DNA from: Emticicia sp. BO119
GTDB taxonomy: Bacteria > Bacteroidota > Bacteroidia > Cytophagales > Spirosomataceae
DNA: 64,000 nt
Direction: 5' to 3'
Assembly: GCF_013912375.1 (NCBI RefSeq)
Contig: NZ_JACETV010000002.1
Coordinates: forward strand, 434,001-498,000
Shown: positions 15,296 through 58,791 of the stretch, piece by piece
How positions within the stretch are numbered: position 1 is the first letter of the stretch
Layout: every line of letters starts with the position of its first letter
Notes under the pieces: generated by a model
Told to the model about the DNA's origin: nothing
The model's database searches: none
What the model saw: only the letters and a program-made list of their open reading frames with translations
Made by a program: the position numbers and the translations under genes

Positions 15296-15906
15296 AATAT
15301 CTAATTATAATCAGTTTCCTAACTCTTATTGGTAGTACCAATGTTTACGCAGCTTCATCTCAAAACTATTCAATTAATAACGGAACCATGAGAGGAGCAG
15401 GAACTTCATCAGCTTTATCTTACTCAAATATAGGGAATGCAAGTGCCTTCTTCGGAAATGCTATACAAAGTTCAAGCTATATAATTAATGGGACAGCATT
15501 AGCAGCAAACAATTTTTCAAACTCATCGAATCAAATCTCTAGCTCTAGAAGTGGTAAACAAACTCAAAAAAAGAGGGTAATCTCTTTGATTATAAAAGAG
15601 AAAACAACCAACAATAATCCAATTATTAGTACAACTTCTAAAACTAAAACAGCATCTACTAATACCATAACTCCGCAATTATTGCTTAATTCAATAACCA
15701 TTCAAAATACTTCCAAGGCTAGTTATAATACTAGGAAGCAATTTTTAAAAGAACATTCAATTATTACTGGATCAATTCAAGAAGGAAAGAGAAACAAAGG
15801 AATTATTTGGCTTATCTCAGCTATCGTTATATTTTTAGGAGCGGGAACAAAACTATATTTTAAAGAAAAAATACGACTTACTAAAAATAAAATTTTCTTT
15901 GATTAA
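15292..15906 (+). CDS. CPR-like anchored surface protein, partner of the fibre gene
   Basis: The product of 204 residues has a signal peptide (MKYLIIISFLTLIGSTNVYA). It continues with a Ser/Asn/Gly-rich segment, SSQNYSINNGTMRGAGTSSA, then QSSSYIINGTALA, which matches the SS.NY.I..G...GG.SSS pattern seen in many Patescibacteria exported proteins. A Lys/Thr-rich linker follows, then a single membrane helix near the C-terminus (GIIWLISAIVIFLGAGTKLYF) with a basic cytoplasmic tail. Such a C-terminal anchor suits a cell with a single membrane better than an outer-membrane lipoprotein lifestyle. It overlaps the fibre gene by four bases, so the pair is coupled. An IS5-type element begins at the base after its stop codon. 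Confidence 0.7.
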   Translation: MKYLIIISFLTLIGSTNVYAASSQNYSINNGTMRGAGTSSALSYSNIGNASAFFGNAIQSSSYIINGTALAANNFSNSSNQISSSRSGKQTQKKRVISLIIKEKTTNNNPIISTTSKTKTASTNTITPQLLLNSITIQNTSKASYNTRKQFLKEHSIITGSIQEGKRNKGIIWLISAIVIFLGAGTKLYFKEKIRLTKNKIFFD

Positions 15907-16784
15907 GAAACTGTTTGAGTTAATTTTTTAATTTTTTTATAAATAATCTAATGAAAGCTATTTTGATAAAACACTCACTATTGTCGGTTAATCTTTCAAA
16001 ATCCTTACTTAAACGCCTATAATGATTTAGCCAAGCGAAACTTCTTTCTACTACCCACCTCTTAGGAGAGACTAGCATTTTGCCATTATTGGCAAGTTTT
16101 GAGTAAGTTTTTACAATCTCCAACTCACATTTAAGGTGCTTTTTTACCCAATGTAGTAAATTACCTCTATAGCCTTTATCTGCAAATATCTTTTTTAAAC
16201 GAGGAAAATCTGCACTATTTTCCACCATTTTAGCTAAAACTAATTGGGCTGATTTACTATCATGAACATTAGCCGCATGTACCTTAACAGCCAGTAGATT
16301 TCCCAAAGTATCAGTTACTATATGCCTTTTGCGGTCTTTCACTCTCTTACCTCCATCGACACCTACTTCTTGGGTTGAAAAAGATGTGTTTTTTACGCTT
16401 TGAGAATCTATTATGGCAGCACTTGGCGTTTGATGTTTTCCCACCTTTTCTCTCTGAAAAACCCTTAATTCATTGACTATCAAATCATAAACCCCCTCAT
16501 TGTTCCATTTTCTAAAATACCAATAGACTGTTTGCCAAGGTGGAAAGCAATCTGGTAAATCTCGCCAACTATTACCATTTTTGCACAAATAAAGTATCCC
16601 TTCCAGGATGCTTTGAAGTCCTCACTTAGATTTCTTTTGGTTTTGTAAATACTGCGCTATATATTGCCACTCGGTAGAGCTTAGGTCTGTTGTATATTTT
16701 TTCTTCACAAATCAAATTTACAACCGGGTGGCGTTCCACTTCTTTGGCTCTACCTTTTTTTATACAATTAATTCAAACAGTTTC
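15907..16784 (-). mobile_element. IS5-family insertion sequence (IS1031-like group)
   Basis: Terminal inverted repeats gaaactgtttgagttaatt (left) and aattaattcaaacagtttc (right) match at 18 of 19 positions. The 3-bp sequence taa occurs immediately outside both ends, as expected for the TNA target duplication of IS1031-type elements. The length of 878 bp and the single transposase fit. The left taa is also the stop codon of the preceding gene. Confidence 0.85.
15920..16708 (-). pseudogene. IS5-family transposase with internal stop codon
   Basis: Translation from the GTG at 16708 gives KKKYTTDLSSTEWQYIAQYL, the typical start of IS5 transposases. The frame then meets TGA at codon 29 (16622-16624) and continues in the same frame with LQSILEGILYLCKNGNSWRD, then PPWQTVYWYFRKW, then AAIIDSQSVKNT (first catalytic Asp), FADKGYRG (second Asp) and VVERSFAWLNHYRRL (Glu). 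Everything after the stop is intact for 222 residues. One TGG-to-TGA or TAT-to-TGA type change therefore seems to have disabled a recently complete transposase. A start inside the remaining ORF would miss the N-terminal DNA-binding part. Confidence 0.8.
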
Positions 16785-17356
16785 TAAGAATATTCAAAAT
16801 AAAGAAAACATATTAAAGATACTGGAACTTCTTGTCATGTTGTTCTAAGCTCAATTAGATTATTCCTTGAAAAGTAACTATTTTTTTGCTCTTTTTCTGT
16901 TAATATTTTATTAAATTTTTAATATAAATTTCAGATTGGATTAATAGAGTTTATATCGAATAAGGTTTTAGTAATTAGATTTCAAATTTACTCTACCCGA
17001 TGATTTTCAGGAGGTGTTGATTATAAGTTAATTGTATTTTATCCACCAAGTAAACTTGCTAAAAAGTTGATTGAATAAAGCATTCTTTTTCAAATTTATA
17101 GTCTATTAACTGTTATTCGATATAAATTCTAATGATAAATACAATTATTTATTTTTGTTGAGAATCGTATATATTATTTTATTAATTTAAAAATTGGCAA
17201 ATAATATACTAATTTTAAAGAGTATTCTTATAAATAATTTTGAACAAATAAAAGTTTAAAAATGATATTAAAGTAGATATTAGTAAAAGAAACTTTATTG
17301 CCAAATAAAGTAATAATTGTATTATTCAGTGAAATTCGACCAAATAATAAATTTAT

Positions 17357-17743: not shown

Positions 17744-20098
17744 ATGAATAGTGAATTAAATTTTTGGGAAGAAAAACAAGACGATTTTGATATAAGGGTT
17801 TTTTTCCTGAAGTATTTCCGGTATTGGTATTGGTTTATTACTTCATTGACTGTTTCATTTATTGTAGCATATTTATACTTACGTTATACAACTCCTATAT
17901 ATCAAGTAAGTTCCTTATTACTAATTAAAGACGAGAAAAAAGGAGGTATGTCTGGTAATGATGTTTTGAAAGACTTAGAACTTTTTTCAGGAAACAAAAT
18001 TGTGGAGAATGAAGTAGAAGTATTAAAGTCTAGGACTTTAATAGAGAAAGTTGTTAATGAACTGAATTTGACCGTATATTATTTCCAAGAAGGTGCCATA
18101 AGAGATTTTGACGAAATGGCTTATGGTATTTCACCAATTTGGGTACAGCATGGAAATTTGAATAGCGTTGCTTATGAAGAACCACTTTTTATTAAAATTT
18201 TAAATAAACAGAAGTACGAGCTATTGGATGAGTATGGGAAGACCAAAGGTATTTTTGCATATAGTCAAAATATCAAAAGTGAGTTTGGTTTATTTCGTAT
18301 ATTTCTTCATGATTCTTTATATCGTAAAGAGAACGATTTAATTAAAGTGACATTTGCTCCTAAAGACGCTGTAATTCAACAATATCAAAGTAACCTACAA
18401 GTTGAGTTACTAAACCAAAAAAGCTCTGTTTTAAAACTTTCTGTAGAGGACGCAGTACCTTCTAAAGGAAGGGCTTTTTTAGCAAAGCTATTAGAAGCCT
18501 ATACATTTTCGGCTTTAAGTGATAAAAATAGGGAAGCGTCAAATACAATACAATTTATTGATGAGCGGCTGAAGCTAATTACTAATGAATTGGGTGACGT
18601 AGAAAGGGACGTTGAATTATATAAGAGCAGTCAAGGGATAACCGATTTAAGTGCAGAAGCTAATTTATTTTTGGAAAAAGTTAAGGAAACGGATTCAGAG
18701 CTAAATTCAGTAGATATTAAGTTAAAGGTATTAGATGAAGTTGAAGCATATTTACTAAGTAGTCAGACGGGCGTGGCTCCATCAACATCGGTCAATGATC
18801 CAGTCTTAATAAACCTTTTAAACAAGCTTAATGAATTAAGCATTCAAAAAGAAAAATATGCAAGGACTACTCAAGTAGGTAATCCATTATTAGAAACTAT
18901 TAGTACACAAATTGCCAATGTGAAAAGTGCGATTAAGGAAAATATTGCTAATCAGAAAAAGACCTTATTTGTTACACGTTCAAATTTAAAAGATATGAAC
19001 AATAAATTTGAATCATCTATTCGAACTATTCCAAAGAAGGAGAGAGAGTTTGTTAATATTAAGCGTCAGCAAGGGATAAAAGAAAGTTTGTATTTATTGC
19101 TCTTGCAAAAGCGTGAAGAAACGGCTATTTCTTATGCATCAACAGTGACAGATAGTCGTGTGGTAGATGATCCTTACAGTACTCCTACTCCAGTAAAACC
19201 AAAGAAAACTATTATTTATGCATTAGCAATCTTAATAGGATTGATAATCCCTGCAAGTGTAGTTAATGGTAAAGAACTGATATATAATAAAATACAGTCT
19301 CGTAAAGAGATTGAGACAATTAGCGGTTTTAGTATTTTTGGGGAAATCAGTAAAAAACCGAAAGATTTACATGATAATGTTTTAGATTTAACCAGTAAAA
19401 GTTTTATATCTGAACAATTCAGAATTTTACGTACAAATCTGCAATATGCAGGTACTAGCAGCGAAGGTAGTAAATCGATTTTATTAACCTCCTCAATAAG
19501 CGGTGAAGGTAAAAGTTTTGTTAGTATTAATCTTGCTGCAAGTATTGCTTTGTTAGAAAAAAAAGTTGTACTTATTGAATTAGACTTACGTAAGCCAAAA
19601 ATTTCAAAATATCTAGGTGTTTCAGAGGACAAAGGAATATCTAATTATTTAATTGATAGAGCAAGTGAGGAAGATATTATTAAACATACCAAAATAAGTA
19701 ATAACCTCTTTATTATTCCTTGTGGGCCAACTCCACCAAATCCAGCAGAATTACTTTCAAATGGAAGAATCAAAACTTTAATAGAAGTACTTAGGCAAAC
19801 GTTTGATTATATTATCCTAGATACACCTCCAGTTGGATTAGTAACTGATGCCACAATATTAAGTCCTTATGCTGATGTTTGTTTCTATTTGGTAAGGCAT
19901 GAATATACGCCTAAAAGTTATCTTAATTTATTGGTCGACCTTAAAAAATCAAATAAATTTAATTCTCTTAATATTATCTTTAATGGAGTGGATTACAGTA
20001 ATAGTGGCTATGGCTATGGCTATGGCTATGGCTATGGCTATGGCTACGCCTACGGAGAAGAGAAAAAAAATAGAGAATGGTGGAAGGTTTGGAGCTGA
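17744..20098 (+). CDS. wzc: Wzc-like polysaccharide co-polymerase and tyrosine autokinase
   Basis: This inner-membrane protein controls chain length and export of capsule or exopolysaccharide through cycles of tyrosine phosphorylation. The order is: a Wzz domain with a first membrane helix (WFITSLTVSFIVAYLYL, about residues 30-47), a long periplasmic coiled-coil region, a second helix (IIYALAILIGLIIPASVV), and a BY-kinase domain. The kinase has Walker A SSISGEGKSF (about 583-592), Walker A' VLIELDLRKPK and Walker B YIILDTPPVG (about 690). The C-terminal tail is a run of eight tyrosines alternating mostly with glycine, encoded by a hexanucleotide repeat, and is the expected autophosphorylation cluster. 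It is the first large gene of the operon. The CpsB-like phosphatase and the Wza-like protein near 47-49 kb are its likely partners. Confidence 0.93.
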   Translation: MNSELNFWEEKQDDFDIRVFFLKYFRYWYWFITSLTVSFIVAYLYLRYTTPIYQVSSLLLIKDEKKGGMSGNDVLKDLELFSGNKIVENEVEVLKSRTLIEKVVNELNLTVYYFQEGAIRDFDEMAYGISPIWVQHGNLNSVAYEEPLFIKILNKQKYELLDEYGKTKGIFAYSQNIKSEFGLFRIFLHDSLYRKENDLIKVTFAPKDAVIQQYQSNLQVELLNQKSSVLKLSVEDAVPSKGRAFLAKLLEAYTFSALSDKNREASNTIQFIDERLKLITNELGDVERDVELYKSSQGITDLSAEANLFLEKVKETDSELNSVDIKLKVLDEVEAYLLSSQTGVAPSTSVNDPVLINLLNKLNELSIQKEKYARTTQVGNPLLETISTQIANVKSAIKENIANQKKTLFVTRSNLKDMNNKFESSIRTIPKKEREFVNIKRQQGIKESLYLLLLQKREETAISYASTVTDSRVVDDPYSTPTPVKPKKTIIYALAILIGLIIPASVVNGKELIYNKIQSRKEIETISGFSIFGEISKKPKDLHDNVLDLTSKSFISEQFRILRTNLQYAGTSSEGSKSILLTSSISGEGKSFVSINLAASIALLEKKVVLIELDLRKPKISKYLGVSEDKGISNYLIDRASEEDIIKHTKISNNLFIIPCGPTPPNPAELLSNGRIKTLIEVLRQTFDYIILDTPPVGLVTDATILSPYADVCFYLVRHEYTPKSYLNLLVDLKKSNKFNSLNIIFNGVDYSNSGYGYGYGYGYGYGYAYGEEKKNREWWKVWS
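20006..20041 (+). repeat. Hexanucleotide tandem repeat in the tyrosine tail of wzc
   Basis: Six perfect ggctat units in a row, followed by the diverged units ggctac and gcctac. Each unit encodes Gly-Tyr, so slippage adds or removes whole tyrosines without changing frame. Confidence 0.9.
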
Positions 20099-32616: not shown

Positions 32617-32775
32617 CATTTCAATGATTGGTTATGTTCTTAAATGTATGATGGCATTTTGTTGAAATAGAAAATGAATATTTTCATTAAAAACCATTGA
32701 ATAGTTAGCTTCTTTGAAAACTTGGTAGTGCGACGATGAAATCTGGCTATTTTAGAGCGGATAAGAGTATTGACC

Positions 32776-32794
32776 CCCGCTTCGGCGGTCCGAT
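32776..32794 (+). repeat. 19-bp hairpin element, copy 3 (transposase C-terminal part)
   Basis: CCCGCTTCGGCGGTCCGAT, with stem CCGC/GCGG closed by a TTCG tetraloop. Removing it rejoins the codons of KNIE and VNTLIRS. Confidence 0.85.
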
Positions 32795-33189
32795 TCAATA
32801 TTCTTTGTAAACTTTTTACCAATTAAATGCTTGGAATATGGTAAAACCTCTCTGAATGCTTGAAATTTATCAGTACAATAAAAACCTACTTCAATATGAA
32901 GGTTTTTAATCTGTACCATTAAACTTTGTAATTGCTTTCGATTACGTTTACCCATTGTTACCGCTAAAATTTCTTTTGTTTCGGGTGCATAAGCATAGAA
33001 TATCCAAACTTTTTTACGCTTTTTGCTTACAAAAGAGAACATTTCATCAATTTCGATACACTCATAATACTTTTGCTGGGGAGAAATCTGTACTTTTTTC
33101 CCTTCTGAAAGTATAAGATTTAAAGTGGTTTGAGGGCTTATGCCATATATCTTATAACAGTCTCGAATGCCACTACCATGAAGCAAAGA

Positions 33190-33208
33190 ACCGCTTCGGC
33201 GGTCCGAT
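33190..33208 (+). repeat. 19-bp hairpin element, copy 2 (transposase middle)
   Basis: ACCGCTTCGGCGGTCCGAT, stem ACCGC/GCGGT with a TTCG tetraloop. Removing it rejoins FQVK and SLLHGSG. Confidence 0.88.
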
Positions 33209-33258
33209 TTTTACTTGAAATTTTACCAATGGATTTGCTCCTTGATAGAGATATTCCC

Positions 33259-33277
33259 ACCGCGTCGGCGGTCCTAT
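33259..33277 (+). repeat. 19-bp hairpin element, copy 1 (transposase N-terminal part)
   Basis: ACCGCGTCGGCGGTCCTAT, the same stem with loop GTCG in place of TTCG. Removing it rejoins GKQF and REYLYQGANP. Confidence 0.85.
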
Positions 33278-33686
33278 GAAATTGTTTACCACAGGTATTG
33301 CATAAAAAATTTTGCCGCCCTGTGGTTTTGATGCCATTTTTGACGACTTTTGTAGAATGGCAATGAGGGCAGTTTACTTTGATATTTATTAGACACATTT
33401 ACCAAAGTTACACCTCATTGCTTCTCTTCTCAAAAATCATCATACATTTCAGTACAATACCCAATGATTATTATTATAAAAATTAAGAGTCTTTGTTATA
33501 TTTAGTATAGTAATAGATATATATCTTAAAATAATTAGCCACTTATTTTGAATTGTAAAACTGAATTTAGAAGATTATGATGAAAAAATGCGGTTAAGAG
33601 AGATTAATATAAAATCAGTTTAAAACATTTTATTTTATTTTCTTAATAGAATCTAAATAGAAGATTATCCATAATAAAAGACTCAT

Positions 33687-57208: not shown

Positions 57209-57338
57209 ATAGTTATGTTTACGGAAAAATATCAGAAAATACTTAATAACAGTTCTTTAGCACGGGGTAAAATAAAGAATATTAAAAGCAAAATCCGGAT
57301 TAGTTTGGTGATAATCAAGTTATTATATCTATAGACGA
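57209..57338 (+). promoter_or_regulatory. Probable CRISPR leader
   Basis: AT-rich DNA next to the best-conserved repeats, on the side opposite the decayed ones. The orientation follows from repeat decay and from the 3' ATTGAAA(T/C) handle. Confidence 0.5.
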
Positions 57339-58791
57339 CATTAAGAGGTCCTTCCACTAAAATAAGGATTGAAATGGCGTGGATGGTTCTAACAATAAGT
57401 GCATTAAGGTTAGCATTAAGAGGTCCTTCCACTAAAATAAGGATTGAAATTTATTATACAGTAAACATGGGGCCAGTTGTAGCTCCTCATTAAGAGGTCC
57501 TTCCACTAAAATAAGGATTGAAATAGCGTCATTAAAAGGAATGGCGTTCAAAATACTATTCATTAAGAGGTCCTTCCACTAAAATAAGGATTGAAATGCT
57601 ACTGACAAACAACTAAAAATCATACGTGTAGCCATCATTAAGAGGTCCTTCCACTAAAATAAGGATTGAAATCTTGTATACCTGATGTTTTGCCGTCGTT
57701 TTCGAGTACCATTAAGAGGTCCTTCCACTAAAATAAGGATTGAAATATAATCGACCTGGAATACTGTTTTGGCGTGATGTGGCATTAAGAGGTCCTTCCA
57801 CTAAAATAAGGATTGAAATCCATTATGAGATTGAATAGATGTAATAGGTAGTTTGCCATTAAGAGGCCCTTCCACTAAAATAAGGATTGAAATTTTTTAA
57901 TTGATAATACCGATCCCCCTTTTTGGCATCATTAAGAGGTCCTTCCACTAAAATAAGGATTGAAATGTGCTAAATACTTTATTGAACTCATCTGAGGCAT
58001 CGGACATTAAGAGATCCTTCCACTAAAATAAGGATTGAAATATAACCTGAAGAGCTGCTGTTATATTCACATCATCATCATTAAGAGGTCCTTCCACTAA
58101 AATAAGGATTGAAATGCAATAGGCGGCAATACTTCCAACAAAAACAGCGTATCATTAAGAGGTCCTCCCACTAAAATAAGGATTGAAATCAATATTGCCA
58201 TCAACATTTTGCCCCCAAAGCACCTTTGGCGGTTGTCATTAAGAGGTCCTTCCACTAAAATAAGGATTGAAATATTCTTCTATATGCTTGTCATCAAATA
58301 AGGCAATAAACATTAGGAGGTCCTTCCATTAAAATAAGGATTGAAATAACGCTTTTAAAATGGAATATTCGAATGAGATAAAGCATTAGGAAGTACTTCC
58401 ACTAAAATAAGGATTGAAACTCAGTCAATTCGATTATGTATCTTAAGCCTCTCATTTTCATTAGGAGGTTCTTCCACTAAAATGAGGATTGAAACCCAGT
58501 AGTCGGATAGAAATAGAAGCCTTGTGCAGCTTTATTAGGAAGTTCTTCCATTAAAATAAGGATTGAAACACCAATTATCTCAAGTATCTGCCATTTGGTG
58601 ACTACAGACATGAGGAGGTACTTCCACTAAAATAAGGATTGAAACTATTCCTCACCAGTTTCAGTTATTCTACAATTATTAACATTAGAAGGTTCTTCCA
58701 CTAAAATAAAGATTGAAACAAATAAGTAGTTACTAGAAGAGAACAGTAAATCCGTATTAAGAAATTTTTGGAATAAAATAAATATTGATAT
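57339..58791 (+). CRISPR. CRISPR array, 20 repeats, 19 spacers, no cas genes in view
   Basis: The 37-bp repeat starts cattaagaggtccttccact and ends aaaataaggattgaaat. The 36-base cores begin at 57340, 57415, 57489, 57562, 57637, 57711, 57784, 57858, 57931, 58006, 58080, 58154, 58238, 58312, 58385, 58460, 58534, 58610, 58684 and 58756. Repeats 1-13 are nearly identical. From repeat 14 on they drift, and from repeat 15 the end changes from GAAAT to GAAAC. Repeat 20 is strongly decayed. Spacers are 36-40 bases except the twelfth, 48. Inside the repeat tcctt pairs with aagga around ccactaaaat, leaving an ATTGAAAT 3' handle as in class 1 (Cas6-processed) systems. The decayed end marks the distal side, so the leader should be on the left. 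Confidence 0.95.

Follow-up and report, generated by a model that had tools for sequence, protein, structure and literature searches.

Comparisons at the sequence level indicate that non-coding mobile elements of 14–16 nt are probably dispersed in many genomes of Spirosomataceae and occur also in another family of that order, in one genome or more. Such an element inserts exactly between a purine and G (mostly A|G, or C|T if the opposite strand is read), and its target is not duplicated. Copies lie in repeats and in the loops of palindromes, between genes and within transposase genes; the host frame is shifted when the length of the element is not a multiple of three. It may move as folded single-stranded DNA, presumably in trans by an enzyme of the host or of an insertion sequence (IS). 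For that step an HUH (Y1-like) endonuclease, which would recognize the hairpin and cut at a dinucleotide, is the leading candidate, albeit a tentative one with somewhat less than an even chance. The earlier note on the window (the whole stretch of 64,000 nt analysed here) had preferred a minute mobile palindromic element in non-essential DNA, and this reading gained support from copies in many genomes and unrelated contexts, filled and empty sites, the target rule and compensatory changes.

In the window, an IS1-family transposase gene on the minus strand (32640–33398; start at 33398, stop at 32640–32642) is broken by three elements. Its pieces match PF03400 in one part and Zn_ribbon_InsA in the other (Pfam). 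The three near-identical 19-mers described before are present at 32776, 33190 and 33259, where 100 shuffles gave an expectation of 0. The gene was aligned with four IS1 homologues, namely one from Aureispira (plasmid record, 67% protein identity), one from the relative G004 and two copies from the relative G001, and showed a net gain of 16 nt at each site. Site 3 (32778–32793, minus strand) holds TCGGACCGCCGAAGCG between GAA and GGG and exceeds all four homologues by a net 16 nt; site 2 (33192–33207, minus strand) holds the same TCGGACCGCCGAAGCG at an A|G target; site 1 (33261–33276, minus strand), placed by the IS1 alignment and the 19-mer, holds the 16-nt variant TAGGACCGCCGACGCG at a target that would also be A|G. 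With this placement every element in the gene has A on its 5′ side and G on its 3′ side, the native G of site 1 being deduced. All three sites are empty in Aureispira and in both G001 copies; site 2 is filled in G004, and none of the four homologues has an insert at site 1 or 3. The insertion points were defined in this way, and a unit of 19 nt is ruled out, since both this alignment and that of an unrelated repeat of ~160 nt give 16. The 19-mers contain neighboring bases because the target recurs, so that the adjoining bases recur too. The numbers 16 and 19 leave the same remainder on division by three, and therefore the argument that each insert shifts the frame by one still stands. On the other hand, the residues across site 1 read QFQWEYLY instead of the proposed junction QF/REYLY, and the restored protein would have 236 residues (33398 to 32640, 759 nt minus 48) rather than 233. 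The open run of the gene with the elements left out is 708 nt.

The IS1 copy of G004 carries a different insert, CGGGGCCGCCCAGCG, and one of the G001 copies has three more: two that are rich in GC, of 15 nt and of a net 16 nt, and one of 14 nt with mixed composition. Homologues of the IS1 gene at E ≤ 1e-20 were found in three of 61 genomes of the family. Its neighbors in the window are polysaccharide-type genes (glycosyltransferases, a hexapeptide-repeat protein and an epimerase). A scan for known RNA families between 15800 and 34000 of the window gave no match that reached the gathering score. Elsewhere in the window, a CRISPR-like array at 57322–58719 is built from a ~37-nt repeat with TTCCACTAAAATAAGGATTGAAAT as its end, present 19 times at a spacing of 73–76 nt (84 once); the array is degenerate at one end, and TGGCTA is repeated in tandem within an open frame at 20005–20052.

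The earlier statement that the window holds no other copies is right for this variant, but a related GC-rich insert of 15 nt, GTGGAACGCCACCCG, lies at 16725–16739 (minus strand) in the 5′ portion of an insertion sequence of the IS4/5 type (PF01609, DUF4096; 15906–16795, minus strand, ends approximate). It was delimited by eye against a copy at G000:C9 of the same genome, its target would be A|G, and its 5′ hairpin is strong while its 3′ hairpin is weak. That relative (L004, L044), 77% identical, carries three different inserts of 14, 15 and 16 nt (by eye), the 15-nt one being in frame. A search of the 61 genomes at E ≤ 1e-30 for more copies of this IS returned only the two already known.

A search of the own genome (6.57 Mb) for the 19-mer with up to three mismatches gave nine places against 0 for the reversed control. 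The place at C1:1234285 was rejected as an element, sitting in an open RF3 gene as ordinary coding sequence. Copies were also found in many other genomes: an 18-mer (≤2 mismatches) matched in 45 of 98 genomes including the own one, with 0–2 reversed-control matches per genome, and G075, which belongs to another family of the same order, had 11 places against one in the control. The matches listed for the 18-mer include Spirosoma, Fibrisoma, Larkinella, Arcicella, Emticicia, Runella, Rudanella and Lacihabitans and, among other Bacteroidota, Cesiribacter, Nafulsella and Chitinophagales bins; the single matches in GC-rich genomes of other phyla among them are taken as chance. A looser pattern matched in 51 of 395 genomes of the phylum, where four members of the window's family had 3, 6, 14 (control 3) and 0 places and other genomes 0–4. 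A 17-mer occurs in eight stretches of viral contigs. The exact 16-mer with one free position, TCGGACCGCCGANGCG, searched without flanks, gave 98 places, spread over 26 of the 61 family genomes (reversed control 1). For a second type of 14 nt, GCGGACGCCGCGCG, 133 places were counted against 3 in the control; they come from 12 of 78 genomes, with 44 in G008, 41 in G042, 13 in the own genome and 10 in G001. Places counted are not independent insertions, and these counts are inflated because larger repeats carry copies: in the own genome, nine of the 13 14-mers belong to a single larger repeat and have identical surroundings, which reduces the 13 to five contexts, and four of the 98 places of the 16-mer are one tandem array. 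The larger repeat, with CACAGTTGGGGAGAGGGATTTAGGGTGTGG 5′ of the element, has its nine copies at places including C1:23166, C12:676727 and C22:229365–452555. A generic scan for two hairpins over 446 kb gave 76 hits against 22–35 in five local shuffles, but many were AT-rich and the scan was too noisy to serve as a census.

The exact unit and its target are evident from a dispersed repeat of ~160 nt in G008 and G001, which matched at 51 places and of which 30 rows were aligned (L188 and L190 are one locus). Site III of this repeat, typically GTAGCC(A/G)|GCAGCTAC, is empty in 19 of the 30 rows and deleted in two; the other nine hold the 16-mer, in some cases changed at one base. At site II, GACAA|GGCG, four rows contain the 14-mer or a two-base variant and one contains a different 16-mer, GCGGTCCGCCGCTGCG; site IV, AAAAA|GAT, is filled by the 14-mer in three rows, and site I by a 14-nt relative in three rows and a shortened 11-nt form in one. 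At sites II–IV the gain is exactly 14 or 16 nt, with target bases neither lost nor doubled. When copies were found without flanks and counted only if their 12-nt flanks differed, the base following the 16-nt type was G in 58 of 62 cases and the base preceding it was A in 45 and G in 15; for the 14-nt type the following base was G in all 55, preceded by A in 37, G in 11 and T in 7. The two types differ in sequence and share purine|G flanks, thus one target rule applies to both. One genome contains four perfect 16-nt units in tandem, which establishes 16 nt as the unit. Other copies lie in palindrome loops, in both arms of longer inverted repeats and in intergenic DNA. Elements often form inverted pairs with a distance of ~20 to 250 nt, and in several of these pairs they sit on the two arms of a longer inverted repeat; such pairs, which recall REPIN doublets, were seen in G014 (L082–L084), G018 (L085, L086), G034 (L393) and G042 (L453, L454).

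The 16-nt type can be folded into two helices, pairing positions 1–4 with 9–12 or positions 6–9 with 14–17, where position 17 is the first base of the target; the two stems overlap and are mutually exclusive. Among 14 elements, 13 of them bounded by an empty homologue (partly by eye) and L003 by eye alone, the 5′ stem has at least 3 bp in all but site 1 of the window, and the 3′ stem in all but the 15-mer at 16725. Compared with shuffles of each element, the stem pair is weakly significant singly (p 0.0004–0.065), owing to the high GC content of the elements. The 16-mer has 33 distinct variants, in which six of 11 double changes in the stems are compensatory where 2.6% would be expected (P about 1e-7 if the variants are independent, though they may share ancestry); four of the six fall in the first helix, the others in the second, and the reversed control gave none of five. 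Three of these six variants carry three changes, a class in which the control had 8 variants against 16 observed. In 39 distinct 17-mers, three of the four pairs in each helix changed on both sides, which was equaled by 0 and 3 of 500 shuffles, and the two-sided changes together with the pair types exceed nearly all shuffles in both helices; slid registers scored lower except for one single-pair register of the second helix. Excluded from these variant sets were sequences with more than three substitutions, loci outside the family (covariation) and copies with a non-purine at −1 (compensatory list and set A1). By energy folding, the 16-mer favors its 3′ hairpin and the 14-mer its 5′ hairpin, and the 14-nt type is no more stable than its shuffles.

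Small dispersed repeats (SDRs) of cyanobacteria are cited in passages of PMC3116915 and PMC4390886, the latter of which places the insertion of SDR5 at a fixed place in HIP1. On our analysis, the element would be filed as a variant of very small mobile repeats, SDR-like in behavior and partly REP-like, but lacking two features of REPs. The SDR elements of Nostoc and its relatives, reportedly described by Elhai et al. in 2008, are 21–27 nt long with a structure backed by compensatory changes. Both they and the present elements are very small repeats that are dispersed in varied contexts including other repeats and inserted precisely; here too, units shorter than about 30 nt are present in many copies in unrelated contexts, with filled and empty sites and compensatory structure. 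The present elements differ in their length (14–16 nt against 21–27), their phylum, their two alternative hairpins, their purine|G target and their frequency in transposase genes. MITEs have the terminal inverted repeats of an IS and a target duplication. Like MITEs or other IS-derived repeats, the elements are non-autonomous and dispersed, also within other mobile DNA, but they lack the target duplication and IS ends of MITEs and are far smaller.

A REP or REPIN-type repeat moved by a canonical RAYT (TnpA_REP), combining a hairpin with CT cleavage, is the strongest of the other explanations, though we regard it as rather unlikely. According to part of PMC8266576, TnpA_REP proteins cut CT 5′ or 3′ of a single-stranded hairpin, and one studied enzyme also cuts CA. 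The A|G junction, found in 43 of 62 copies of the 16-nt type and 37 of 55 of the 14-nt type, reads C|T on the other strand and would agree with such a cut. Inverted pairs with short spacers occur in G014, G018 and G034, as in REPINs. Y1 genes are present in 55 of the 61 family genomes, and a portion of PMC6006769 describes Bacteroidetes Y1 genes of subclass 2.6 flanked by atypical structures with copies elsewhere. On the other hand, a REP is a 20–40 bp palindrome with a GTAG or CGTC tag at one end, as a passage of PMC3733652 defines it, whereas our elements are shorter and are found within genes; the 16-nt type has neither tag, and in the 14-nt type CGTC occurs on the complement and not at an end. 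A RAYT gene flanked by the repeat was also not found: none of 30 Y1 loci (2.2–3.4 kb each) carries either type when up to two changes are allowed in the 16-mer and up to one in the 14-mer, and at one further Y1 gene, in G018, an element lies ~212 nt away on a single side. Moreover, strong Y1_Tnp matches (a cut-off of E ≤ 1e-10 that we set) occur in nine of 13 genomes with at least two exact 16-nt copies versus 36 of the 48 others in the tally over 61 genomes, which is no association. Because strong Y1 genes are as common in those 48 genomes and all 30 loci are free of both types, the HUH enzyme is a candidate and not a finding.

Next to mobility, the earlier note had ranked second a skipped element of the translational bypass kind. 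As considered here, ribosomes would bypass the 16 nt, or the RNA would lose them, so that the transposases work and the sites are conserved by inheritance. The likeness to the bypass elements of Magnusiomyces mitochondria and to T4 gene 60, described in part of PMC5009743, lies in short frame-breaking inserts in otherwise open genes. When elements were left out, 41 of 259 places fell in open runs of at least 600 nt, whereas there were 20 when the element stayed in and 19 each when one or two more bases were dropped. Pfam was applied to 25 pieces from 27 host rows (L100 and the second L054 row were left out): 17 matched transposase-type models, two of them helix-turn-helix models only, and the hosts include IS3-type rve, IS4/5, IS110, Mutator/IS256, IS630-type DDE_3 and ISL3. 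Four others were cellular genes (NAD synthase, CPSase, a Gate-domain protein and DUF4835) that start immediately 3′ of the element, and four had no Pfam family. Among the 25, no identified essential gene is broken within its coding part.

The shared sites bear on this question. Elements identical in position to the nucleotide, with flanks 55–87% alike, were found at site 2 of IS1 (L001/L100) and in L090/L425, L417/L421, L243/L039 and L098/L337, the last upstream of a gene; L013/L432 have a common site, yet align at 49–54% over 250 nt. These are six host pairs with an exact shared site, and a seventh, L085/L088, has none. The host is taken as a transposase in four of the six, by Pfam for L001/L100 and L243/L039 and by eye for L090/L425 and L417/L421. 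The IS1 genes of the window and G004 have identical elements at site 2 despite dS of 0.76 and dN/dS of 0.11 outside the inserts. Such sharing exceeds the expectation for random insertion, and hot spots or long inheritance are therefore needed: either some A|G sites are hot, or the insertions are old and the genes still work. In addition, an IS4-type copy of G008 with the element within its transposase occurs at two places, identical over 724 nt, which means that the IS spread after the insertion, in trans or with the insert tolerated.

These facts would suit skipping, but other facts disfavor it. The element has the same orientation as the open run in 21 cases and the opposite one in 15 (n = 36, some of which may be spurious open runs), where a bypass element or intron would be in sense; in the transposase-labeled subset, labeled by locus and without L054:2181 and L233:4436, the numbers are 11 and 10. 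Codon phases 0/1/2 are 5/10/8 (n = 23, from the lengths of the left pieces). L219, L157, L256 and L165, with the element 5′ of the start codon, were excluded from both counts. Neither orientation nor phase has a clear preference, which favors the mobile palindrome over bypass. Furthermore, take-off and landing codons are unmatched at the three window sites (by eye), hosts are mostly non-essential or non-coding with many copies in intergenic DNA or palindromes, and intact tRNA genes stand beside interrupted copies. Pristine elements in diverged hosts fit recent independent insertion too, and intact IS copies could act in trans; together with orientation and phase, the pristine elements argue for movement in trans over tolerated inserts. 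We therefore consider skipping or intron-like removal very unlikely, as is the composite case of a bistable hairpin of 14–16 nt that is both mobile and tolerated in working transposases through skipping or removal at fixed conserved sites.

The candidates for introns in tRNA genes (L366, L413) were rejected: an intact tRNA-Lys lies beside L366, and G028 has, at another place, a single intact match to an initiator-like tRNA. At L366 (1470–1740) the intact tRNA-Lys is flanked on both sides by a tRNA-Lys-like copy whose anticodon loop holds a GC-rich insert (by eye). In contigs C24, C76, C82, C103 and C104 of G008 (L459–L463), TCGGATCGCCGAAGCG interrupts a frame that resembles IS256 (by eye); the overlap of 70 nt there may be a k = 55 assembly bubble of the 16-nt insert, with IS copies with and without the element coexisting.

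It is slightly less probable still that the inserts are excision scars (footprints) of a larger transposon or by-products of template switching in replication, for although they have no coding capacity, come in few lengths and often lie in palindromic hosts, the same sequences recur in unrelated flanks and genomes, the compensatory changes span the whole 16-mer, and units occur in tandem; the loci that were read showed no larger parent. An assembly or sequencing artefact can practically be dismissed: some copies are at contig ends of draft genomes, but the elements are present in many assemblies, including G014 with all its copies on a single 7.0-Mb contig, and in named records of several genera, with homologues consistent in frame and covariation in both helices.

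In the open-licence literature we found no description of these sequences or elements, only of relatives, and a prior description elsewhere is possible. If the mobile element is confirmed, DNA of 14–16 nt would spread precisely through bacterial genomes, a size at or below the lowest for mobile DNA known to us, SDRs being reportedly 21–27 nt. Its sharp purine|G target, fixed length and competing hairpins should make the mobilizing enzyme findable, and with it how so short a unit is recognized, excised or copied. The conserved sites in diverged IS copies provide a test of hot spot versus inheritance. If tolerance by skipping or removal, improbable as it is, were true, the element would be a bacterial, genome-wide counterpart of the mitochondrial bypass elements, or a 16-nt intron. 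Finally, if the mobile element is confirmed, it would explain some of the 'frameshifted' transposases in these genomes.
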